Origin: a virus
IMG/VR virus record: IMGVR_UViG_3300020060_000007
Coordinates: 1 to 42,720 of that record
Direction: 5' to 3' (one strand)
Length of the DNA: 42,720 nucleotides
Below are positions 16,245 through 42,720 of the stretch, piece by piece. Position 1 is the first letter of the stretch, and each line of letters opens with the position of its first letter. Below the pieces are notes generated by a model. That model had not been told where the DNA came from. It did no database searches and saw only the letters and a program-made list of their open reading frames with translations. Made by a program: the position numbers and the translations under genes.

Positions 16245-17029
16245 GAGACTTCCTCGATGCGACCTCGCACAGCGATCCAATACTCAGCCTCCGAGTACGA
16301 CCTCCCGCACCTGCGGCACTCGTAGTTGTCGCTGTAGCCGCCCTGGTCGCACTTGGCGTGCTCGGTGGCTTCCTCGGGGTAGGAAATGAGGATCTGCCTG
16401 AGCATGATCGTCGGGTCCTGGTCGCCTGCCATGGCCCGCGCGCGCTTGGTGTGGGCGCATCCCCTCTTCGGTGAAGCCGTGCGGGTCAGGTGCTGGCCGC
16501 ACCCGCTACACGGGACGCCACGCTCCACCCGGTCGCCGTGGCGCAGGGACGACTCCAGGGCGCCCACGGACTTCGCGAGCTGGGTGGAGAACTCATCGAA
16601 GGCGGGATGATGCTGCGCCGCCCACGCGAGGCGCTTCGAGAGGTAGGCCGTGGTACTGCCGATGGTCGCCTTCTCGGGGGCTGCGGGTTCCTTGCGGAGG
16701 TTCCGCCAGTCGTCCTCCCATGAGCCGAGCATGAAGCTGATGGGATCGGGGTCGAGTTGGAACAGGGCGTCAGGCTCTGAGCGGCCCTCAGAGCCGTCGG
16801 ACAGCATGACCAACAGGTCACCGCCCGGGAGCGGCCGTTCGTGGCTCCTGGATCCATCCTTGGGCGTGCCGCCGGAGACCGCGGGCCACCCGTCAAGGCG
16901 CTCGTCACCTACTGCGGCGAGTTCGAGGATCGAGGACAGGTTGTTGCGCGCCCGGTTCAGGCAGTTGATGCACGTCTGCGGCTCATCGCCGAGGTCGCGA
17001 AAGCAGACGATGCAGGCCGTGACGCTCAT
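16241..17029 (-). CDS. Zinc-binding hypothetical protein, 262 aa
   Basis: Starts MSVTACIVCFRDLGDEPQTC at ATG 17029; an upstream in-frame start overlaps the next gene more deeply and is not favoured. It has three cysteine clusters: CIVC with CINC at the N-terminus, CSGCGQHL in the middle and CDQ...CRRCGRSY near the end, suggesting several zinc ribbons. The middle (SFMLGSWEDDWRNLRKEPAA, TAYLSKRLAWAAQHHPAFDE) is a helical block recurrent in actinophage early proteins of unknown role. A role in nucleic acid metabolism or regulation is only an inference. Confidence 0.75.
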   Translation of the reverse strand: MSVTACIVCFRDLGDEPQTCINCLNRARNNLSSILELAAVGDERLDGWPAVSGGTPKDGSRSHERPLPGGDLLVMLSDGSEGRSEPDALFQLDPDPISFMLGSWEDDWRNLRKEPAAPEKATIGSTTAYLSKRLAWAAQHHPAFDEFSTQLAKSVGALESSLRHGDRVERGVPCSGCGQHLTRTASPKRGCAHTKRARAMAGDQDPTIMLRQILISYPEEATEHAKCDQGGYSDNYECRRCGRSYSEAEYWIAVRGRIEEVS

Positions 17030-17145
17030 CCGAACCTCCGGTGTCGCTCGCACACCAGTTCGGTACCGGTGTTGTCTGTGTACGGTCTGGTTCGGGTGGC
17101 TGGGGTTCCACAGCCGTCAGCGCAGAGAGCAGGGTCTAGGTTCAT
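17026..17145 (-). CDS. 39-aa Cys-containing microprotein
   Basis: Encodes MNLDPALCADGCGTPATRTR to RHRRFG (39 aa), with Cys residues at CADGC and VCERH. ATG 17145 overlaps the upstream stop by ATGA and its stop overlaps the next start (17029) by ATGA, which supports expression. The text resembles the N-terminal zinc motif common to small actinophage early proteins (CGTPAT...YC). Function unknown. Confidence 0.6.
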   Translation of the reverse strand: MNLDPALCADGCGTPATRTRPYTDNTGTELVCERHRRFG

Positions 17146-17324
17146 GGGGTCTCCCGAGGCGTGGACCAAGTCGTCCGGCAAGCGCGCGCAGGCATCACGT
17201 CGTGGCCGCAGGCGATACAGAACGCTGGATCGTCGGGCGTGATGATGACCTCGCCGCCACATGTACCGCAGCGGGCGTGCACGACGCACCACGGATCAGG
17301 ACAGGTGCAGGCCTCGCCGCTCAT
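17142..17324 (-). CDS. 60-aa zinc-ribbon protein
   Basis: Encodes MSGEACTCPDPWCVVHARCG to TPRETP. Cysteines CTC, WC, CGTC and CIAC form a compact probable zinc ribbon (ARCGTCGGEVIITPDDPAFC). Starts and ends in ATGA overlaps with its neighbours. Role unknown. Confidence 0.65.
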   Translation of the reverse strand: MSGEACTCPDPWCVVHARCGTCGGEVIITPDDPAFCIACGHDVMPARACRTTWSTPRETP

Positions 17325-17728
17325 GTGGGGTCTCCACTTCGGCCGGGGCAGTTGCGCATGTGGTTCCGCGCCGTCTGGAAGATCTCCAGCAGCCCGGTGT
17401 GGCTCCTGCTCGGCTCGAACCGGTGGATCGTCGGGCAGTGAGCGCAGGAGACCTCTACGTCACCGTTGACGGTGGCCTGGATCAGGTAGCCGTCGAAGTC
17501 AACGGCTCGCTCAGCTGCTTCCTGGCGGCCTAGCTTCAACCCGAGGGCGGTTGCTGTCTCGAACAGGGGGCGGAGGTGAGGAAGAGCGGCCTCCAGAGCA
17601 GCGAGGGACATCTTCGAGGCGTCCTGGATACCGACGTTGCACGCATAGAACCCGCCCCCGATCTGGTAGCCCTCGATCGCGTCAGCGCCCGCCTCCACCG
17701 CTGCGGGTGGTATCACCATGTCAGTCAC
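17321..17728 (-). CDS. Hypothetical protein, 135 aa
   Basis: MTDMVIPPAAVEAGADAIEG to GRSGDPT. Helical N-terminal half (MSLAALEAALPHLRPLFETA), then VDFDGYLIQATVNGDVEVSC with CAHC and a later NCPG, so a zinc site may exist. The N-terminal phrase PPAAVEAGADAIEG recurs in early proteins of actinophages. No function can be assigned. ATG 17728 overlaps the MazG-like gene stop by ATGA. Confidence 0.7.
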   Translation of the reverse strand: MTDMVIPPAAVEAGADAIEGYQIGGGFYACNVGIQDASKMSLAALEAALPHLRPLFETATALGLKLGRQEAAERAVDFDGYLIQATVNGDVEVSCAHCPTIHRFEPSRSHTGLLEIFQTARNHMRNCPGRSGDPT

Positions 17729-18156
17729 GCGCGCTTCCCTCCGTGCTTGGCGGGGCGGGTCAGGTTGAATGCGATCTTGCGCTCGTACTCAGCGCGGAGG
17801 TCGATGCCGTATGTGGCGCAGTTGTCGAGCAGGCGGATGAAGATGTCCGCGAACTCAGACCCCACACCTTCGGGCTTATGGGGGTTGCCGAGGTAGTCGA
17901 CGCCCTCGCGGGTCGCATCCTTCGCGTAGCCCCACTTGCGCCACGCCTCCCACGCCTCCGAGACCTCACCGTGGAGGTTTGCGATGGCCGTCGGGAATTG
18001 AACCTGCTCACCGTTGCCCCAGTCGTGCCGGGCGTTGACCTCCACCACCTCGGCTTGCATCGCCTCCAGCGTCTTCACTCGCGCTAGCCGTTGTTCCTGG
18101 TGCAGGGCTTTACCCGCTCTACGGGCTGCCTCGAATTCGGTGCGGTCGTCAGTCAC
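17725..18156 (-). CDS. MazG-like nucleotide pyrophosphohydrolase
   Basis: A 143-aa protein from GTG 18156, giving the same 8-nt overlap seen elsewhere. The MazG-like metal site is visible: FPTAIANLHGEVSEAWEAWR (ExxE) and, further on, EGVGSEFADIFIRLLDNCAT (ExxD), followed by EYERKIAFNLTRPAKHGGKR, the usual basic closing. Such enzymes hydrolyse non-canonical NTPs or alarmones such as ppGpp. In phages they may modulate the nucleotide pool or starvation response during infection. The N-terminal 35 residues are a charged helix. Confidence 0.82.
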   Translation of the reverse strand: MTDDRTEFEAARRAGKALHQEQRLARVKTLEAMQAEVVEVNARHDWGNGEQVQFPTAIANLHGEVSEAWEAWRKWGYAKDATREGVDYLGNPHKPEGVGSEFADIFIRLLDNCATYGIDLRAEYERKIAFNLTRPAKHGGKRA

Positions 18157-18346
18157 GGGTGGCCTCGCAGGACTCATCAGGCGGGCGCTCGTCCATCCCG
18201 GCTTTATGGAACGGAATTCGGCCGTCAACGACAGTGACGTGGGCGCCGCAGGAGCAGCGAGCGCCGAAGATCCTGTCGTTCGGGATTCCGGTCAGATCAC
18301 CGGTCAGTCCGAGTCCGCTGTATGGACAGAGAGCCGCGTCGGTCAT
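18149..18346 (-). CDS. 65-aa Cys-rich hypothetical protein
   Basis: MTDAALCPYSGLGLTGDLTG to SCEATRD. It has LCPYSG and ARCSCGAHV, a possible zinc ribbon, and no recognised family. ATGA coupling with the upstream gene and an 8-nt overlap with the downstream one support its reality. Confidence 0.62.
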   Translation of the reverse strand: MTDAALCPYSGLGLTGDLTGIPNDRIFGARCSCGAHVTVVDGRIPFHKAGMDERPPDESCEATRD

Positions 18347-18618
18347 GCGGTAGCCCCCAAACCGGCCCAGCCAGAGGGTCCGAGACCCCAGGCGATGCCG
18401 TCAGTCGTCCCAGGCCGTTCTCGGGGATACCACTTGGCCTCCCCGGATGGATTCAGGGTTGTCGTCGGGTCCTCACAGGTGAGGTTCCCGTTGTCTAGAT
18501 GCTGGTGGGCCGTGAAAGCCGTCTCGCCACTGAAGGTCAGGTGGCACGCGGTGCAGTGGCCGTCCTGGTCGTTCGCGCGGGACACCTTGCCGCATCGCGG
18601 GTCGGTCATGGTCTTCAT
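18343..18618 (-). CDS. FDXHR-type zinc-binding protein
   Basis: A 91-aa protein. Residues about 20-55, HCTACHLTFSGETAFTAHQH then NLTCEDP, match the small phage zinc-binding domain family named for its FDxHR motif (here AFTAHQ), with C..C, His and Cys as probable zinc ligands. A C-terminal Gly/Trp tail follows. Members are common in actinophage early regions; their role is unknown. The start ATG 18618 overlaps the loader-like gene stop by ATGA. Confidence 0.7.
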   Translation of the reverse strand: MKTMTDPRCGKVSRANDQDGHCTACHLTFSGETAFTAHQHLDNGNLTCEDPTTTLNPSGEAKWYPRERPGTTDGIAWGLGPSGWAGLGATA

Positions 18619-19049
18619 GCGTTCCTCCGTGGGATGCGCTGGAAGGCGCCTTGGGTGATTGCCTTGACCTTCTGGACGCCGGCCTCATCGCGGCCCGAGT
18701 CCAGCTCCTTCGGCTTCAGGTCGCCGTCAGCGATCGCCTTCTCGGTGGCGGTCTGCCACTCGATGAACGCGCGCCAGTTGTCCGGGTCCAACTCCTCAGC
18801 CGGCGGAGGCGGGATGGCGCCGAACTCCGCGATCCGCTTGGCCCGGATCCGCTTCACCTCCGCGATGATCTCGGCGACCGCGATGAACACCTGCTTGGCA
18901 CCGAGCGTCTTCACGGCCTCAAGGGCGTCGACGTAGCGGATCTCCGGCATCAGGTCGGCCCACGCGTCTCCGGTGTACTCGTTGAAGCGTTGCTGCGGGC
19001 AAAGCTGCTCGACGTAGCCGGACAGCATCACCGCTTCCTGGGGGGTCAT
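18615..19049 (-). CDS. Putative helicase loader (G39P-like)
   Basis: A 144-aa protein, MTPQEAVMLSGYVEQLCPQQ. The helical N-terminus fits the layout of the SPP1 G39P/helicase-loader group: an initial helix, a short segment RFNEYTGDAWADLMPEIRYV, then DALEAVKTLGAKQVFIAVAE leading to IIAEVKRIRAKR. It directly follows the DnaD-like initiator with an ATGA overlap, the usual pairing. It would deliver the host replicative helicase to the phage origin. Similarity is read by eye and the C-terminal half is divergent. Confidence 0.65.
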   Translation of the reverse strand: MTPQEAVMLSGYVEQLCPQQRFNEYTGDAWADLMPEIRYVDALEAVKTLGAKQVFIAVAEIIAEVKRIRAKRIAEFGAIPPPPAEELDPDNWRAFIEWQTATEKAIADGDLKPKELDSGRDEAGVQKVKAITQGAFQRIPRRNA

Positions 19050-19804
19050 GCGAGTTCTCCTCGTGGGGTGGCGACTCGTTGCAGGGAGCGCTCGAGACGG
19101 CCAACGGAGTCAGGGCGGCTAGGTGCCGCCCGCTTGTAGGTCTTGGCGTTGTTCAGCCAGGTGCGGAAGGCGGCATCCCACGACTTCATCGTCGAGCCCT
19201 TGGCCTCGTGGTGGTCGCGGAACTTGCGCAACTCGAAGGCGGGATCCAGTCCGTAGTCGATCGCGATCTCGAGGTGGTCCTCCTTCGGCTTCCAGTCGGC
19301 CGGCAGTTGTGTCGCGCGCTTGCGCGTAGTGGGTTCGGGGGCGGGATCCTCGGGAGGACTCGCTACCTCGGCCGAAGAGAATTCCCTTCCCTTCCCTTCC
19401 CTTCCCTTCCCTAAAACGACGGAGTCCTCTAGAGGACTCGCTAGGGCTACGGAGGACTCGTCAAGAGATGCACGTTTCCGCAGGTCAGCCCGCACGTATC
19501 TCTCTAGAGCCGGATTCGACACCCGCTGGTGTCGCTTCCAGTGAGTTATCCACAGGACAATCCCGGTCGGCCCGTCAAATGCCTCCAGAAGGGAGGCCTC
19601 CAGAAGCCTCGCGAGGGCTCTAGAGATATCGACGTCATCGCCCGGGAAGATCTGCATCTTGATCCGCCGCGGCGAGTAATCGAGGTAGCCCTGGTCGTCG
19701 GCGAAGTTCCAGAGGCCGATGAACAGCAGCCGCTCATGGAATTCGAGTTCGACGATCTTCTCGTCGGTCCAGAAGTCGGGCTTAATCGTCCGGATCCGCG
19801 CCAT
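19046..19804 (-). CDS. DnaD-like replication initiator
   Basis: A 252-aa protein starting MARIRTIKPDFWTDEKIVEL, the hallmark opening of actinophage replication initiators with a winged-helix N-terminus (FHERLLFIGLWNFADDQGYL, RRIKMQIFPGDDVDI). A Ser/Glu/Arg-rich linker contains GKGREGKGRE, encoded by six TTCCC units. The C-terminal domain has the DnaD-type stretch LPADWKPKEDHLEIAIDYGL and a motif near WDAAFRTWLNNAKTYKRA. Start ATG 19804 overlaps the methyltransferase-like gene by TAATG. It probably binds origin repeats inside its own gene (see 19354-19625) and recruits the loader encoded next. Confidence 0.88.
   Translation of the reverse strand: MARIRTIKPDFWTDEKIVELEFHERLLFIGLWNFADDQGYLDYSPRRIKMQIFPGDDVDISRALARLLEASLLEAFDGPTGIVLWITHWKRHQRVSNPALERYVRADLRKRASLDESSVALASPLEDSVVLGKGREGKGREFSSAEVASPPEDPAPEPTTRKRATQLPADWKPKEDHLEIAIDYGLDPAFELRKFRDHHEAKGSTMKSWDAAFRTWLNNAKTYKRAAPSRPDSVGRLERSLQRVATPRGELA
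19354..19625. other. Putative replication origin: iterons inside initiator gene
   Basis: Within the linker and winged-helix coding part there are three GAGGACTCG direct repeats (19354, 19432, 19452), an inverted copy forming the perfect 18-bp palindrome at 19422-19439, three CTCTAGAG palindromes (19427, 19502, 19618) and six TTCCC units (19382-19411). The first two GAGGACTCG copies are 78 bases apart, the next 20 bases, so the third is out of codon phase and protein repetition does not explain them. Initiator genes with internal origins are well known in lambdoid and Gram-positive phages. Function is inferred. Confidence 0.5.
19382..19411. repeat. Six tandem TTCCC units
   Basis: Thirty bases of TTCCC repeated six times on the plus strand (GGGAA on the coding strand), encoding GKGREGKGRE in the initiator linker. 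It is a purine-tract repeat prone to slippage and could form part of an origin. Confidence 0.85.
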
Positions 19805-20523
19805 TAGGCAACCCACCTCATCGTCTTATCGAGGTATGCCTTTCGCCCGTCAATATGGCCGGCGAGCAGTTGATGCGGCAGATCATGAACGGCGAGCAAT
19901 GCGAACGCCTTATCGAAGCCTGCCAGGTAGTTCCCGCCGAAGGCATGCCCCACCGTGTCGGGGTAGATCAGCGGTTCGCGGATCGGGTCGAGGTCGAACC
20001 AGTACCGCTGCGACTTGCTGAACAGGAACATCAGTTCGTAGCGGCAGGAGAGCCGGTCCGTGACGCTCTCGGGCATGGCGTTCGGCTTGTTCCAGACGAT
20101 CGCGTTGCGGAGGATCCACCCGTCGTCCTGCAGCGCGAGGGCGACGCGCCACGGCATGCCGAGCAGGTTCTTCGGAGCGAATCCGGGAACACGAGTCGAC
20201 TGCTGCGGGACACTCCCGATCGTTCCATGCTTGCCGCCGTTCCCCTGTCCGCCAGCGCTGTACGAGTCGCCGAGGTTGAGCCACAGCGTCCCGACGTCGG
20301 CGAGCACTCGGCGCACCTCGGCGAACAGGGCGCGCATCGTCTCGACGTACTCGGCAGGCGTCTTCTCCAGCCCGTACTGCCCCGGCTCGCCGTAGTCGCG
20401 CAGCCCGAAGTACGGCGGCGAGGTAACGCAGCTGTCGACCGAGGCGTCCGGCAGGGTACTCAGGACTTTGAGCGAGTCGCCGTGGTGCAGTGTTACCTGG
20501 TCGTCGCTGTAGTGGACGGTCAT
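19804..20523 (-). CDS. Truncated N4/N6 DNA methyltransferase-like protein
   Basis: A 239-aa protein. It begins like beta-class DNA methyltransferases: LHHGDSLKVLSTLPDASVDS, catalytic SCVTSPPYFGLRDYG, then VLADVGTLWLNLGDSYSAGG, KNLLGMPWRVALALQDDGWI, MPESVTDRLSCRYELMFLFS and RYWFDLDPIREP. In this class an AdoMet-binding DPFxGSGT motif should follow, but the protein instead ends in an unrelated-looking GFDKAFALLAVHDLPHQLLA and KTMRWVA. No DPF-GSG text occurs in any frame in that stretch. The gene ends in TAATG with the initiator. It may be inactive, use a partner, or bind DNA only. Confidence 0.82.
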   Translation of the reverse strand: MTVHYSDDQVTLHHGDSLKVLSTLPDASVDSCVTSPPYFGLRDYGEPGQYGLEKTPAEYVETMRALFAEVRRVLADVGTLWLNLGDSYSAGGQGNGGKHGTIGSVPQQSTRVPGFAPKNLLGMPWRVALALQDDGWILRNAIVWNKPNAMPESVTDRLSCRYELMFLFSKSQRYWFDLDPIREPLIYPDTVGHAFGGNYLAGFDKAFALLAVHDLPHQLLAGHIDGRKAYLDKTMRWVA

Positions 20524-20912
20524 CCCGCCACCTCCCCGAGCAGGGGAGACTCACAGGGGGTACGGGAGCCGTCATCCGACAGCTTGAACCAGCCCTCGAA
20601 CAGCAGGATGGGCTCCTGGGTGGGGTCGATGTCGGGGTTGTTCCGTGGCAGCAGCCACCCCGTCATCCCCGCGGCCTTGGGGTGTTCGGTAACCCAGCCA
20701 TGACAGCCGAAGACGCCATCGCCACATGCGCGGATGAGGATCGAGGCACGCTCGAGTAGAGCCGAACCACCGCGGCCCTTGTTCAGCCTGTGGTGGATGG
20801 AGCTCGGCCTGTCCACGATGGACTGCCCGCACATCTGACAGCGGTGCCCGTCACGCTGGCGTACGAGGGTGCGGGCGGCCTCTACGTCCTTACGAGTGGC
20901 CTTCGGGGACAT
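20520..20912 (-). CDS. HNH endonuclease
   Basis: A 130-aa protein. HNH features: RDGHRCQMCGQSIVDRPSSI with paired Cys, IHHRLNKGRGG with the His pair, then ILIRACGDGVFGCHGWVTEH with the second Cys pair and final His. The C-terminal third (GWLLPRNNPDIDPTQEPILL) is typical of actinophage HNH proteins related to recombination NinG-like genes. The N-terminus KATRKDVEAARTLVRQ is helical and basic. TAATG coupling with the upstream gene. May act as a homing nuclease or in recombination. Confidence 0.85.
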   Translation of the reverse strand: MSPKATRKDVEAARTLVRQRDGHRCQMCGQSIVDRPSSIHHRLNKGRGGSALLERASILIRACGDGVFGCHGWVTEHPKAAGMTGWLLPRNNPDIDPTQEPILLFEGWFKLSDDGSRTPCESPLLGEVAG

Positions 20913-21148
20913 TAGCCACCGTCCATCTGGTCTGCGAGGCGGTTGAGCATGACGTTCAGTTCATCCTCGAAGCCGCCTCGCTGAGACAGGTTCACCAGAT
21001 ACGCAAGGGTTCCGAGCGTCACCCAGCGAGTGGCCGTGATCGCCTCCTCGTTCCAGTCGCCTCCTCGCTCGAGGATGTCCTTGGTGATGATGTAGTCGCT
21101 GGCCCCGCCGACCAGTTGATCAGTCAAGGCCTGTCCGCGCTCGTCCAT
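20912..21148 (-). CDS. Hypothetical protein, 78 aa
   Basis: MDERGQALTDQLVGGASDYI to LADQMDGG. Helical, acidic, with SDYIITKDILERGGDWNEEA and TLAYLVNLSQRGGFEDELNV; no cysteines, no motif I recognise. Coupled by TAATG on both sides. Confidence 0.65.
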   Translation of the reverse strand: MDERGQALTDQLVGGASDYIITKDILERGGDWNEEAITATRWVTLGTLAYLVNLSQRGGFEDELNVMLNRLADQMDGG

Positions 21149-21318
21149 TAGCTGGCCTCCTGAAGTTCCGGGCGGGTCTCTTTCTGGTGGCGCTTAGCGA
21201 GCCGGCTGGGGTGCAGTTCGGACCTCGACCCGAAGTGGTAGAGGTCGCAGTCCATGCACCAGAAGCCCCACTGGGTCTCGTCGTCGGTGACGAACACGAG
21301 GGGTCGGTGGCCCTTCAT
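21148..21318 (-). CDS. Small hypothetical zinc-ribbon-like protein, 56 aa
   Basis: From ATG 21318: MKGHRPLVFVTDDETQWGFW, with CMDCDLYHFGSRSELHPSRL, a CxxC and a possible His pair. The start overlaps the preceding mini-gene stop by ATGA. A longer open frame upstream reads through the neighbour and is not favoured. Confidence 0.6.
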   Translation of the reverse strand: MKGHRPLVFVTDDETQWGFWCMDCDLYHFGSRSELHPSRLAKRHQKETRPELQEAS

Positions 21319-21359
21319 GAGGCGAGCCTGACGTAAATGCGATTGGCCGCGCAGGTCAT
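21315..21359 (-). CDS. Possible 14-aa microprotein
   Basis: ATG ACC ... TCA TGA encodes MTCAANRIYVRLAS. It is bounded by ATGA overlaps on both sides, exactly like the full-size genes of this operon. It may be a coupling bridge that carries ribosomes from 21356-21493 to 21148-21318, or a truncated remnant of a longer gene. Too short to judge by composition. Confidence 0.35.
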   Translation of the reverse strand: MTCAANRIYVRLAS

Positions 21360-21493
21360 ATCGACACCCCCGCAAGGGTCCGCTCGGTGGCGACGATGGT
21401 GCGGCCGACGTCGATGCGGGCATGCAGCGCGCGGATGTGCTCCCGCTGGATCCGCACGAGGGCGGCAGTCTTGTCTCGGTTGGTGTGCGCCAC
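21356..21493 (-). CDS. Small hypothetical protein, 45 aa
   Basis: From GTG 21493 (TAGTG overlap with the upstream stop): VAHTNRDKTAALVRIQREHI to LAGVSI. One predicted amphipathic, basic helix (LVRIQREHIRALHARIDVGR). No family recognised. Support comes from tight coupling on both sides. Confidence 0.55.
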   Translation of the reverse strand: MAHTNRDKTAALVRIQREHIRALHARIDVGRTIVATERTLAGVSI

Positions 21494-21684
21494 TAGCAGC
21501 CCCGCCTCTCGTCGTCATCCAGCACGAGCTCGGCTGGAGTCACGGGCGGGTCGTAGATCGCCTTGATCTCCTCGCGCGAGAGACCGCCACCGACGTTGCG
21601 GTAGACCTCGTCCAGCGCCTTGGACGCCTTCCTGACGGCAGGGTCGGTGCGCTCCAGTTCATCGAGGTCGTCCTGCAGGCTCAT
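21493..21684 (-). CDS. Hypothetical protein, 63 aa
   Basis: MSLQDDLDELERTDPAVRKA to DDDERRGC. Acidic, with a helical N-terminus (DELERTDPAVRKASKALDEV), as found in short antitoxin-like or antirepressor-like proteins, but no motif supports such a role. Coupled to the RHH gene by ATGA. Confidence 0.65.
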   Translation of the reverse strand: MSLQDDLDELERTDPAVRKASKALDEVYRNVGGGLSREEIKAIYDPPVTPAELVLDDDERRGC

Positions 21685-21890
21685 CGCAACGCTCCGATGA
21701 TCTCGACGACGTTGCCGTCCGCATCGACCGCCGCCAGCCGGTTGCCCAGCGCGGTCTGCACATCCTGGTAGTTCAGGACGCTGACCGCGTGACGTACCGC
21801 CTCGGTGACCGTCACCCCATGTGCGCGGGAGTACGCCTCAAGCGATGCCCTGCACTCGTCATTGATGTTCACGTTCAGGCGGGTGGTCAT
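21681..21890 (-). CDS. Ribbon-helix-helix DNA-binding protein
   Basis: A 69-aa protein, MTTRLNVNINDECRASLEAY. N-terminal strand RLNVNIND, helix CRASLEAYSRAHGVTVTEAV and second helix RHAVSVLNYQDV match the RHH (CopG/Arc) fold. A transcriptional regulator of phage or host genes is likely, binding as a dimer. The C-terminal DADGNVVEIIGALR may mediate oligomers. ATGA coupling both sides. Confidence 0.8.
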   Translation of the reverse strand: MTTRLNVNINDECRASLEAYSRAHGVTVTEAVRHAVSVLNYQDVQTALGNRLAAVDADGNVVEIIGALR

Positions 21891-22453
21891 GAGACCTCCC
21901 CGAAGTCGAGCGCGGCCTGTCCGTCAACCTCAAGCGGTTGGCCCTCAGCTACTGCCACAACGCGACCGAACACGCCGGTGCCGGGGAATAGGTCGTCGAT
22001 CCGGTCACCGTGCTTCCAGCCGAGGATGTCCAGGACCCAGCGGCAGAAGTCCTTGGGCTTGGCTCCGGTCAGGCCCTTCCTCAGGGTGATGTTCGCCGCA
22101 AGGAAGTCCTTCGGGGTCGTAGCCTCTCCGCCCTTCTCAGGCGGCGGATGCTTGGAATTCCTGCCACCCCGGAACAGCAAGGGCTCCCAGGCATAGGCTG
22201 GGCGTACGCCCTTCTTGTAGGCGTGGAACGGCTTCACCCAGGCGCCAATGCGGACGTCATCGGGGCACATCGGCAGCAGCACCTTGAGGCTCGGGGTGTG
22301 ACAGCTGAGCGCCCAGCCATCGGGGTACTCGCGGCACAGACGCTCGATCAGCAGGCGGTGGGTCTCGGGGTCGTCCCAATCCCGCGAGTTCGGGTGCTCG
22401 GGGTAGAGCCGCCCACATCCCAGATAGACAGGGTCGGCGTAGGCGAACTTCAT
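21887..22453 (-). CDS. DNA methyltransferase-like protein with altered DPPY motif
   Basis: A 188-aa protein from ATG 22453 (MKFAYADPVYLGCGRLYPEH). The family opening is normally ADPPYLG, the catalytic motif; here it reads ADPVYLG. Then WDDPETHRLLIERLCREYPD, GWALSCHTPSLKVLLPMCPD, VRIGAWVKPFHAYKKGVRPA, and near the end DDLFPGTGVFGRVV, the AdoMet-binding DxFxGxG motif. Members are common in actinophages and modify adenine or cytosine against host restriction. Pro to Val in the catalytic motif may reduce activity or change the target. Confidence 0.8.
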   Translation of the reverse strand: MKFAYADPVYLGCGRLYPEHPNSRDWDDPETHRLLIERLCREYPDGWALSCHTPSLKVLLPMCPDDVRIGAWVKPFHAYKKGVRPAYAWEPLLFRGGRNSKHPPPEKGGEATTPKDFLAANITLRKGLTGAKPKDFCRWVLDILGWKHGDRIDDLFPGTGVFGRVVAVAEGQPLEVDGQAALDFGEVS

Positions 22454-22692
22454 TGGGTCACCCACTTAGCAAGGTGCTCACCAAGGTGACGCACATCCCG
22501 ATCACTGAGCCCCCAGCGGGTTTGCCCTAGGCCGACCTCGAAGATGTCGGCGCGGCAGGCTAACCAGTGATCGATGACCTCAGCGACCGTCTCGCCCTCG
22601 GGCTTCAGGTCGTCATGGGGTTTGTCGTTCCACGGCATCATCTGGTGGACGATCGCGTGATGCTCCAGGTTGCGCTGGATGTGGTCGCTCAC
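22450..22692 (-). CDS. Hypothetical protein, 80 aa
   Basis: From GTG 22692: VSDHIQRNLEHHAIVHQMMP to HLAKWVTQ. Helical with many His (HIQRNLEHHAIVHQ) and a Trp-rich second half (DHWLACRADIFEVGLGQTRW). No recognised family. GTGA and ATGA coupling on either side. Confidence 0.65.
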   Translation of the reverse strand: MSDHIQRNLEHHAIVHQMMPWNDKPHDDLKPEGETVAEVIDHWLACRADIFEVGLGQTRWGLSDRDVRHLGEHLAKWVTQ

Positions 22693-22964
22693 AGCACCTC
22701 CTCCTGTGGCTCGAACATGGGAACCCCGGACCTTGCCGCTACCTCTAGCTCCTCCAGGAACCGCGCGGCAGCCAGGTTGTCCGCCTCCACCCCGGACCGG
22801 GCACAGGCTCCGATGTGTGCGAGAGCGGCGTTCAGGAACTCCGTGACCCGCGTGTGGTCGCGGAGGTAGGCGTCCTTGATGGAGTCCCGAATGCCGTCAT
22901 AGGTGGACTCCGACATTGGGTGGCGGGCGATGGTCGCGAACGGGTCGATTAGTTCGGCGCTCAC
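22689..22964 (-). CDS. Hypothetical protein, 91 aa
   Basis: From GTG 22964: VSAELIDPFATIARHPMSES to EPQEEVL. Mostly helical (DSIKDAYLRDHTRVTEFLNA, NLAAARFLEELEVAARSGVP) with two Cys close together (GACARSG). It follows the ERF gene by a GTGA overlap and may have a role in recombination, but no family is recognised. Confidence 0.65.
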   Translation of the reverse strand: MSAELIDPFATIARHPMSESTYDGIRDSIKDAYLRDHTRVTEFLNAALAHIGACARSGVEADNLAAARFLEELEVAARSGVPMFEPQEEVL

Positions 22965-23572
22965 GCGGGCACCTGCTGCTTCAGGTGTTCGGCGTACTCG
23001 TAGAGCCGGGTCGAGGTGGCATTGCCGAACAACTCACCCTGCGCCCAAGCCATGAAGTCCTTCGCGACGGCATCCGTATCAAGCTCCCCGCGGTTCGCCC
23101 GCCACGCGTCGGCGACAGCAATGCGGGCCGCGATGATGGGATCAGGCATGGCGCGCTCGTACGACTGGGAGTCCGGGTCTGGCTCGTCGGTGGGGATACA
23201 CAGCATCTGCAGCAGGACGATGCGGTAGGCGACACTCATCGCCTTCGGGGTGCCCTTGTCGCCGGTGTCCATCGACTCCCCCGGCACCGTGGCTTCGATG
23301 AAGTCGCCGGCCGGTCCGTAGAACCGGTACGTGGCGCCGACGGTCACTTCACGCGAGGGCTTACCGGTGGAGGTGAGGACGTCGCGGTACCTCGCGGTGC
23401 AGGCGTACGGGACGGGGATGATCTTGTGTTTCCGGAAGATCGGTCCGACCGCGTTCACCACCTGGTCGATGCCGCGGAAGTTGTACTTCTGGCTGTCGTT
23501 GAAGCCGTCCTTGCGGACGGCCTGCACCTCTTCCATGGCTGCGCTCATCACGGCGTAGATGTTCTCGGTCAT
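22961..23572 (-). CDS. ERF-family single-strand annealing protein
   Basis: A 203-aa protein, MTENIYAVMSAAMEEVQAVR. ERF features: KYNFRGIDQVVNAVGPIFRK, YACTARYRDVLTSTGKPSRE, RFYGPAGDFIEATVPGESMD and DKGTPKAMSVAYRIVLLQML, which is the usual AYRYALLQLL helix. ERF proteins anneal complementary single strands for recombination and genome circularisation. The ATG at 23572 overlaps a TGA in another frame, and no stop separates this frame from the WhiB-like gene upstream, so a WhiB-ERF fusion of 288 aa is formally encoded. A resolvase (RusA-like) gene lies just above. Confidence 0.9.
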   Translation of the reverse strand: MTENIYAVMSAAMEEVQAVRKDGFNDSQKYNFRGIDQVVNAVGPIFRKHKIIPVPYACTARYRDVLTSTGKPSREVTVGATYRFYGPAGDFIEATVPGESMDTGDKGTPKAMSVAYRIVLLQMLCIPTDEPDPDSQSYERAMPDPIIAARIAVADAWRANRGELDTDAVAKDFMAWAQGELFGNATSTRLYEYAEHLKQQVPA

Positions 23573-23827
23573 GCGGCGGTGCTCTCTTCCTGCTGGGCTT
23601 GGCGGGTGATCCGGCGGCGAACATCTCGCGGAGAGTCCGCCCAGCACGCCGTACTGCTCGTTGTTGTCCAGCGCCCACTGGAGGCAGAGGTCCGTAGCTG
23701 GGCAGGTGAAGCACATCGCCTTCGCCCTGCGGGTCGAGCCACCTTTCTCCGGGTAGAACTCCTCCGGATCTGAGCGGGCGCAGACCGCGTGCCGCATCCA
23801 GGGCTGTCGAGACGTGTTGATGTTCAT
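23569..23827 (-). CDS. WhiB-like protein with disrupted C-terminal frame
   Basis: Starts MNINTSRQPWMRHAVCARSD. The WhiB domain has four Cys for a 4Fe-4S cluster (AVC, MCFTC, DLC), EEFYPE, and the turn GVLGGL. After GGLS the frame changes: read straight it becomes ARCSPPDHPPSPAGREHRR and runs into ERF; with a shift of two bases it reads PRDVRRRITRQAQQEESTAA and ends in TGA overlapping the ERF start by ATGA. That alternative is a classical WhiB tail and normal coupling. So two bases appear lost near 23631, by mutation or assembly error, or a frameshift is used. WhiB proteins regulate transcription through sigma factor. Confidence 0.8.
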
Positions 23828-24222
23828 GGCTTCCCCCGTTCGGGCACTTCGGTGAATGTGAGCGTCACGAAACAGGCGACACCCGGGATGTCGTGGGTGT
23901 CCTCGGCGGACGTGAATGTCAACGCCTGCAGGTACTTGTCGGAGTCGTCAGGCAGTAGGCCGTAGTCCCCGATCACGCCATCGAGAGCCGCTTTAACCGT
24001 TGGCTGGAGGTTGTGCGAGTCGCGGGTGCGGGACAGCTTCGGCCACTTGATCACCGCCTCACAGGTGGCGGCCTGCATCTTCTGCGGGCGCTCGTGCAGT
24101 GCGATCACGTAGGCCATGTCGCGGATGACCTTGGTGTGCCGCGCCTTGGTGGCCCAGTGCTTCCTTTGGTTCGAGGTGAGGACCACGTCCCGCGAGATCG
24201 CGAGTTGGATGACGGCACTCAC
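23824..24222 (-). CDS. RusA-like Holliday junction resolvase
   Basis: A 132-aa protein from GTG 24222 (VSAVIQLAISRDVVLTSNQR), GTGA-coupled. RusA signature: RKHWATKARHTKVIRDMAYV early, then RTRDSHNLQPTVKAALDGVI with Asp residues that bind metal, followed by GLLPDDSDKYLQALTFTSAE. RusA-type nucleases cut four-way junctions symmetrically, in step with ERF-mediated annealing. The location next to WhiB/ERF makes a recombination cassette. Confidence 0.85.
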   Translation of the reverse strand: MSAVIQLAISRDVVLTSNQRKHWATKARHTKVIRDMAYVIALHERPQKMQAATCEAVIKWPKLSRTRDSHNLQPTVKAALDGVIGDYGLLPDDSDKYLQALTFTSAEDTHDIPGVACFVTLTFTEVPERGKP

Positions 24223-24698
24223 GATGGTCGCGGTGGGTTCGAGCGGTCCAGGTCGGGCCAACTGGGGATCTTGCACATCAGTACGCCGACAAGCACCTCG
24301 CGGCCCCGACGCTGCTGCCACCATCCGATGTTCCCGCTGGCCCGGTTCGTGGCGCGCGGGTAGGCGATGCTGGACCATCCTCGGTAGCTCGTGGAGTCGA
24401 CGCCATATGTCGCTGTTCCGATGCGGATGATCGACGTGTCATCGTCCGCATCGCCCAGCCACAGGGGTTTGACGGTAGGCGTGGCCCGTACCTGACTGAG
24501 CAGTGTCCGCAGTACCGTGGGGCTGAACTTCGCCGGCGGCGGGTTCCTCTCGCCGACCGGCTTGTTCCACAGGTCCACCCGGGCGAGCGCGAACCGGTCG
24601 GTCACCCACTGGATACCCCGGTCTTCGATGGCCCAGCGGTACGTGTCGGGGCTGATCAGTAGGTCGCGGTGCTTCTTCGCTTTCGGCCAGTTGCTCAC
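24219..24698 (-). CDS. Hypothetical protein, 159 aa
   Basis: From GTG 24698 with GAGGAGAA upstream: VSNWPKAKKHRDLLISPDTY. A mixed alpha/beta text with WAIEDRGIQWVTDRFALARV, VGERNPPPAKFSPTVLRTLL and GWSSIAYPRATNRASGNIGW. Many Trp and Arg suggest DNA or nucleotide contact. Not recognised. Starts after the longest gap in this part of the operon, so it may have its own ribosome site rather than coupling. Confidence 0.7.
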   Translation of the reverse strand: MSNWPKAKKHRDLLISPDTYRWAIEDRGIQWVTDRFALARVDLWNKPVGERNPPPAKFSPTVLRTLLSQVRATPTVKPLWLGDADDDTSIIRIGTATYGVDSTSYRGWSSIAYPRATNRASGNIGWWQQRRGREVLVGVLMCKIPSWPDLDRSNPPRPS

Positions 24699-24730
24699 AG
24701 GGTTCTCCTCACGGTGTGGTTGTTGGTTGG

Positions 24731-24747
24731 CCCTCCCCCAGAGGGCG
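24731..24747. terminator. Weak hairpin in early operon gap
   Basis: GCCCTC at 24731-24736 pairs with GAGGGC at 24742-24747 across a 5-base loop. There is no U tract, so it may be an RNA processing or pause site rather than a terminator. It sits in the 24699-24798 gap, which otherwise holds only an 8-codon open frame (MRRYWDW) at 24774-24797. Confidence 0.3.
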
Positions 24748-24798
24748 GGCGATGGACGGTTAGTTGCCTAGGGCTACCAATCCCAATAGCGGCGCATG

Positions 24799-24954
24799 TC
24801 ACTCACCTCCGATCGGTGGGTGACGATTGGCCCGGATCCAGGCGGTACGGGCAGCTGTGTCGGCAGCGGTCGAGTCCGGGTCTGGGTCCTCTGGGTAGCG
24901 GGCGGCGAACATCTCGCGGACCGCAGCCTTGAAGTCGAGCCAGCGCTGCCTCAT
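24799..24954 (-). CDS. Small hypothetical protein, 51 aa
   Basis: MRQRWLDFKAAVREMFAARY then PEDPDPDSTAADTAARTAWI and ending RANRHPPIGGE. ATG 24954 overlaps the upstream stop by ATGA. An N-terminal amphipathic helix followed by a charged second half. No family recognised. Confidence 0.6.
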   Translation of the reverse strand: MRQRWLDFKAAVREMFAARYPEDPDPDSTAADTAARTAWIRANRHPPIGGE

Positions 24955-41182: not shown

Positions 41183-42720
41183 TCACCCGTTCGTCATCTG
41201 CAGTGTGTACGCCCCGCCGGATCCACCGACGAGCCGGAACTTGGCCTCGTTCATCGCGTCCTTGAACGCCTTCTTGTTCGCCGTCGCCAGATCAGCGATG
41301 GTGCCCCGGCTCAGGGTGGTGTCCCTGCCCAGTGCGGCTTCCTGCGCCTCGGTGCGGACCGTCTCCGTCTTGCCGGACAGGTTCGCCCCGAGAGTCCCGG
41401 ACCTCCACTTGCCGCCGGTGTCGAACGTGTCGATGCCGAGCTCCTTCAGCAGACCCTTGCGGTTCTTGAGGGAGTCGTACGGCGCGTCACCCTCGACGGC
41501 ACCACCTCGGGCGTAGCCCTTCAGGTGCCAGATGTTCCCGCCGAACAGGCGGTCCTTCGCGCCGCGCGCACGCCCACCGGTGACCACACCGGCACCACCC
41601 CTGGACTCGACGTTCACCCCGTTCAGGGTCCCGGCCATGTGGCCCGGGTTACCTCTGCGGGAGCCGATCGAGAACGCACCCATACCGCGGGCGAACATCG
41701 ACGTCGGGAAGTTCCCGGTGGCGAACAGCCTGCTGTAGGTCTTGCGGCCCAGGATCACGTTCGTGATCGCGGACATGAACCCGGAGCAGTCGTACGCAGA
41801 CGGGCCGACAGCACCCCACCCGTAGGGCTTGCCAACCTGCCTCTTCGCGAAGGTCAATGCACCGGCGAGGCCAGGGTTCACCTGACCCTTCGCGAGTTGC
41901 AGGCCGATGATGCGGGCGATCGAGGAACCGGCCCAGCCCACACCGAATTGCGCCTGCTCCTTCAGTTGCGTCAGCCGCTCATTGGACGGGACGCGCGGGT
42001 TCAGTTTCACCCCGCCACCCTTGGCGTAGCCCTTCGCCCACTCGGAGCGCATCTGCTCGACCGCTCCATGCCCGCCGGCGCCGCGAACTTCCTTCGCGGT
42101 CAGGACGTGCTCGTTGTTCGACAGCAGGGCGGGGATGGAGTCCGAGGTCGAAGTACCGCGGCCGAACACGCCACCACCGGCGGCGAACTTCATCTTCTTC
42201 GTGGCTTGCCCCAGTGCCTGCGTGTAGGACAGCCCGATCTTGACGTCGACCGGTTCATCGTTGATCCCGTCGAGCTTGGCGTTCACCGAGTCGCGGAACT
42301 TCCCGAACGCCTCGGATGCGCCCTTCAGTTTGTCGCCCAGGCCGGGGACCCAGCCGAACGCCGTCGCTGCGGTATCCAGAATGGTCTGCGCGAAGCCGAG
42401 GAACTTGTCGACCACGAACTTGAGCGCGATCCGTGCGGCGGACTTGATCGAGTCCCAGTTCCTCGCGATCACCACGACCGCGAGGCCGAACGGGCCGGTG
42501 AGAACCGCCAGCAGCAGGGGCCAGTTCGTCTTCACCCAGTTGATCGCGCCGAGAACCGCTCCGGTGACCGCCTTGAACGCGCCGACCGCGATGTCGCGGA
42601 CCTTGGTGAAGACGGCGTTCACGACATCGCGGAACGTCTCCGAGTTCTTGTAGGCGTAGACCAGACCGGCCGCCAGCCCGACGAGGGCGAGCACGATGAT
42701 GCCGATCGGGTTCAGGCTCA
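41183..42720 (-). CDS. Tape measure protein, C-terminal part with NlpC/P60-like domain
   Basis: Continues 1-1736 across the circle; residues 579-1048 of the full protein are encoded from 42593 to 41183 (42594-42720 repeats 1-127). Further helical and hydrophobic stretches, the common tape measure motif NEHVLTAKEVRGAGG near 740, then an NlpC/P60-like cysteine peptidase module: QVGKPYGWGAVGPSAYDCSG with Cys848, and GHMAGTLNGVNVESRGG with His897. Such domains help local wall cleavage during DNA entry. The end KGYARGGAVEGDAPYDSLKN and a charged tail follow. Confidence 0.92.
   Translation of the reverse strand, partial: SLNPIGIIVLALVGLAAGLVYAYKNSETFRDVVNAVFTKVRDIAVGAFKAVTGAVLGAINWVKTNWPLLLAVLTGPFGLAVVVIARNWDSIKSAARIALKFVVDKFLGFAQTILDTAATAFGWVPGLGDKLKGASEAFGKFRDSVNAKLDGINDEPVDVKIGLSYTQALGQATKKMKFAAGGGVFGRGTSTSDSIPALLSNNEHVLTAKEVRGAGGHGAVEQMRSEWAKGYAKGGGVKLNPRVPSNERLTQLKEQAQFGVGWAGSSIARIIGLQLAKGQVNPGLAGALTFAKRQVGKPYGWGAVGPSAYDCSGFMSAITNVILGRKTYSRLFATGNFPTSMFARGMGAFSIGSRRGNPGHMAGTLNGVNVESRGGAGVVTGGRARGAKDRLFGGNIWHLKGYARGGAVEGDAPYDSLKNRKGLLKELGIDTFDTGGKWRSGTLGANLSGKTETVRTEAQEAALGRDTTLSRGTIADLATANKKAFKDAMNEAKFRLVGGSGGAYTLQMTNG
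42594..42720. repeat. Right copy of 127-bp terminal direct repeat
   Basis: Identical to 1-127. Removing one copy closes the genome to about 42,593 bp. Confidence 0.95.

Follow-up and report, generated by a model that had tools for sequence, protein, structure and literature searches.

A phage WhiB-like gene that reads in frame into its ERF neighbour, probably through a short templated frame change

WhiB-like 4Fe-4S proteins and ERF single-strand annealing proteins are encoded in an actinobacterial phage genome by a single open reading frame. Does this frame represent a redox sensor joined by selection to a recombinase, or two ordinary genes whose separation was lost through mutation or sequencing error? 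The question was addressed in one virus record, IMGVR_UViG_3300020060_000007, the whole 42,720 bases of which are called the window here.

Two domains in one reading frame

The minus-strand ORF 23827..22961 encodes 288 aa and is free of stops across both domains. The WhiB domain was matched by Pfam PF02467 (residues 10-68, E 5.7e-18, above the family cut-off), and the ERF domain by PF04404 (residues 90-222, E 1.1e-20, 74.7 bits against a cut-off of 25) and by PHROG 155 (E 1.1e-35), confirming the original prediction that WhiB continues into ERF without a stop. The WhiB half carries the four-Cys signature of Wbl proteins (C, CxxC, C), formed by C16, C39, C42 and C48, and a turn of the G[VI]WGG type is present as GVLGG, with L replacing W. 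The basic C-terminal helix that should follow the turn is missing from the 288-aa frame (frame A), which reads ARCSPPDHPPSPAGREHRR at this position and has a Pro-rich linker. A basic tail, PRDVRRRITRQAQQEESTAA, is found only in the alternative frame entered at ~23631, and its TGA overlaps the ERF ATG as ATGA. Such a tail and overlap had been predicted, and reading of the frames bore this out. The same coupling was observed at the neighbouring junctions, also as predicted: the minus-strand operon consists of ATGA/GTGA-overlapping genes (RusA-like resolvase, WhiB, ERF and small genes), with overlaps at 23827-23824 between the RusA-like gene and WhiB and at 22964-22961 between ERF and the next gene. 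The features of the locus are listed in Table 1.

Table 1. Coordinates of the features at the WhiB-ERF locus and of the matching 20-nt stretch upstream
Feature	Position	Strand	Remarks
WhiB gene, intact part	23633..23827	minus	four Cys and GVLGGL turn; PF02467; codon score favours its own frame
Frame-A linker SARCSPPDHPPSPAGREHRR joining WhiB to ERF	23573..23632	minus	lowest codon score of the three frames (-9.65)
Alternative-frame WhiB tail PRDVRRRITRQAQQEESTAA	23569..23631	minus	TGA 23571-23569; tail end resembles that of L069
ERF single-strand annealing protein	22961..23572	minus	own ATG 23572-23570; PF04404, PHROG 155
AGGA, possible ribosome-binding site	23588..23591	minus	15 nt before the ERF ATG
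RusA-like resolvase gene	23824..24222	minus	upstream of WhiB, ATGA-coupled; PHROG 9203, E 2.7e-11
20-nt stretch at the frame break, probable templated copy	23613..23632	minus	identical to 24901-24920
Matching 20-nt stretch, probable donor	24901..24920	minus	A[LV]RE kept in L064 and L081 homologues
Small gene holding the donor stretch, 51 aa	24799..24954	minus	homologues in L064 (57%) and L081 (47%), same operon

Codon usage and relatives of the junction

To establish which frame is native, a codon model trained on the other genes of the window was applied to the last 20 codons of the WhiB tail. The fusion frame scored -9.65, the separate tail +1.47 and the third frame -0.76. The separate-tail frame was thus 11 nats ahead of the fusion frame, where real coding stretches of equal size exceed a shifted frame by a mean of 14.7 (sd 6.3); the separate-tail frame is not a product of chance. 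A WhiB profile built from 30 sequences likewise favoured the separate tail over the fusion tail by 6-8 bits. Two missing bases had been proposed; the frame change itself (+1/-2) stood, and the loss of two bases is one of two equivalent readings. A tail with one extra base scored 90.8 bits on the profile and the other tail 88.9-89.6 bits, values too close to decide between them. On the ERF side, the N-termini of homologues align at or near the window ATG at 23572.

A scan of viral contigs for the junction sequence returned a single match, the contig of locus L069 (IMG/VR 3300044739_000012). This locus is like the window in gene order and in the sequence of the ATGA junction. Unlike the window, its WhiB, which is only 27% identical, has a stop of its own. 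The L069 ERF is 47% identical, and the separate WhiB ends in GCCGCATGACCGAG directly before it, at the same junction as in the window. The tail ends are also alike (AEQEAEIAA-stop in L069 and AQQEESTAA-stop in the alternative frame of the window), and the motif CAGGAAG occurs at the same distance from the ERF ATG in both. The original prediction had named relatives in which WhiB stops normally ahead of ERF as a refutation. L069 is one, and the fusion can thus not be ancestral, whereas a derived fusion is unaffected by this finding.

In two further relatives (L072 and L081) WhiB is separate and lies somewhat further upstream of ERF, with another gene between. The locus with the closest ERF, L064 (62-64%), has another small gene in the WhiB slot, and its record lacks WhiB altogether. 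The WhiB position of L064 (2361-2502) holds an unrelated ~47-aa ORF that likewise ends in ATGA before ERF, and therefore the slot appears to swap small genes while the coupling stays. The ERF type of the window was found in only three of 396 genomes of the phylum. No WhiB-ERF fusion was present in any of 191 ERF loci, none of 50,697 phage and 72,556 plasmid records covers 80% of the 288 aa, and a literature search for such a fusion yielded nothing relevant. An apparent match to the fusion motif in another locus, L068, was rejected as an out-of-frame chance match that has no GG turn. Comparison of these sequences indicates that the ancestral state is two coupled genes rather than a fusion, because codon usage, the WhiB profile, the ERF starts, the L069 junction and the lack of fusions elsewhere all point this way.

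A genuine and selected fusion, with the 4Fe-4S domain serving to tether the annealing protein or to place it under redox control, would fit the open 288-aa frame with its Pro-rich linker, and regulator fusions are known (WblP, phage Ku-Lsr2 and the WhiB read-through of phage GAL1, all described below). However, the linker has the worst codon score of the three frames, the fusion is absent from all of the loci and records searched, and L069 keeps separate genes, which makes a selected fusion quite improbable.

A 20-nt repeat at the frame break

The sequence TCCGCGAGATGTTCGCCGCC occurs at 23632-23613 and again at 24920-24901. It is the only non-tandem exact direct repeat of at least 18 nt in the genome; the sole exception among direct repeats of this length is a TTCCC tandem array. 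The repeat starts exactly at the WhiB frame break, and its copies lie in genes ~1.3 kb apart. A non-tandem direct repeat of at least 20 nt arose in none of 150 codon shuffles and in one of 60 Markov sequences; the match could be coincidence. Within the WhiB copy, the frame of the donor gene scored best (REMFAA, +2.8 against -3.1 and -3.8), in a test resting on six or seven codons, and beyond the repeat (23612-23573) the WhiB-tail frame scored +4.6 against -5.9 and -3.6. The homologues of the donor gene in both L064 and L081 have retained A[LV]RE where the repeat lies, which shows these residues to be native to the 24954-24799 gene.

The best explanation, and in our judgement a probable one, is that a separate, ATGA-coupled WhiB gene suffered a frame change, probably by a short templated copy, with the fusion as a by-product. 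The starting point would have been an ordinary, separately encoded phage WhiB that was translationally coupled to ERF via ATGA. Approximately 20 nt may then have been copied from 24920-24901 into WhiB by a template switch or micro gene conversion, which would have changed the frame by +1 (one base extra) or -2 (two missing) just after the Gly-Gly turn. Both the ancestral bases and the direction of copying are proposed from proteins of 27-57% identity, the WhiB tail having no close relative and the WhiB itself being distant from those of the ERF relatives. Of the mutation first suggested, the disruption of the frame near 23631 in an ATGA-coupled WhiB was upheld; a simple loss of two bases or a slip in assembly was not, and the repeat points to templating instead. 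Since the downstream gene lies one frame away under an ATGA overlap, any stop-free +1/-2 change in the tail joins both proteins, and an open fusion frame is the by-product expected of this geometry. Ribosomes leaving WhiB would enter ERF, producing a WhiB-ERF fusion in addition to free ERF initiated at the ERF ATG. Production of free ERF probably continues, because the ERF start and the possible AGGA site, which is common to L069, are retained. The WhiB part would keep its cysteines and lose its basic C-terminal DNA-binding helix. The fusion is most likely accidental and not a selected redox-controlled recombinase.

It might be argued that the metagenomic contig contains a sequencing or assembly error and that WhiB and ERF are separate in the real phage, given that the window is a single virus record and that the alternative frame is entirely normal by codon and profile scores. 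However, the site contains no homopolymer, a miscalled base would not leave 20 nt exactly matching another gene, and a chimera of 20 nt would require two junctions. A rough frame-switch scan, itself too insensitive to flag the WhiB site, also revealed no other clear break in the recognised genes. We consider an error unlikely.

Ribosomal shifting that gives both forms, as also suggested originally, found no support. Programmed +1 frameshifting would yield normal WhiB and some fusion from one mRNA; both frames do give sensible products, and frame A has a rare AGA codon after the break. Nevertheless, CTC TCC GCG AGA allows no +1 re-pairing, a stop codon that would make ribosomes pause is absent, the RNA fold is nothing unusual (z -0.76), and codon usage of the tail in the WhiB frame is poor within the repeat. 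Programmed frameshifting is therefore exceedingly improbable.

Gordonia phage GAL1 and other regulator fusions

A comparable case was found in Gordonia phage GAL1 (KR053194), where Orf53 (KR053194 36318-37556) is one 412-aa ORF in which WhiB continues in frame into the next gene. Orf53 is annotated as a single WhiB-family protein. In the relatives Horus, Phabuloso and ODay, two ATGA-coupled genes stand where GAL1 has one, and compared with these GAL1 has a net +4 nt (frame +1) in the WhiB tail, a few codons after the GG turn. GAL1 resembles the window in that a frame-shifted WhiB runs, after the GG turn, into the ATGA-coupled next gene. It differs in its partner, which is an HTH-like DNA-binding gene and not ERF. 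The same fusion is carried by the 49,954-bp contig L034 (2818-4056); a comparison of 1,401 bp revealed no difference from GAL1. The GAL1 genome comes from Illumina reads at a depth of about 927-fold, and its paper gives >99% identity to a contig of 49,954 bp from a separately sequenced strain (PMC4972346), which from its length is probably L034. The GAL1 fusion is very unlikely to be a sequencing error, which makes the frame change in the window more believable as real. GAL1 also shows that a WhiB fusion of this kind can persist in nature.

DNA binding by WhiB1 of M. tuberculosis and by phage WhiBTM4 requires the turn and the basic residues that follow, which in WhiB1 are dispensable for the cluster (PMC3390391). 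WhiBTM4, from mycobacteriophage TM4, belongs like the window protein to the phage WhiB-like proteins, and the two are alike in the kind of turn and C-terminal region. Its tail residue R67 is needed for DNA binding (PMC3390391), whereas frame A is without such a tail. Because of this loss, the WhiB half of the fusion would by analogy at most hold the cluster and perhaps bind a sigma factor.

Fusions of an actinobacterial regulator to a DNA-acting domain are known from WblP, a Wbl-ECF sigma fusion of plasmid SCP1 (PMC6282962), and from phage Ku-Lsr2 proteins, two of which were reported to work in phage genome circularisation (PMC8612146). Both are like the window in this respect, but neither has ERF as partner. 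For the working redox-sensor/recombinase fusion raised in the original prediction, no supporting evidence was found. That the newborn fusion is expressed and useful, either tethering the annealase to host RNA polymerase or making annealing responsive to redox or NO while free ERF is still made, is a long shot and very improbable. More generally, the locus illustrates a route to gene fusion in tightly coupled phage operons, in which one base gained or two lost upstream joins two proteins at ATGA in one step. With its 20-nt copy, the break also makes short templated mutation open to testing in a phage encoding an annealing protein of its own.

Some further features of the genome were observed. 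The TTCCC array (19382-19412) comprises six copies, GGGAA on the coding strand, within a DnaT-domain replication gene (19816-19046), where it encodes GKGREGKGREF. A slip of one unit would alter the reading frame, and the array could be a phase-variable site. An N6/N4 DNA methylase gene is located at 19804-20523, and within 17000-24900 its region is the one that matches known actinobacteriophages best at the DNA level (about 70-77%). An exact 127-base direct repeat is present at the termini (1-127 and 42594-42720). It probably represents the last k-mer used by the assembler on a circular contig, and because of this repeat the record is probably a complete genome that was assembled in circular form.
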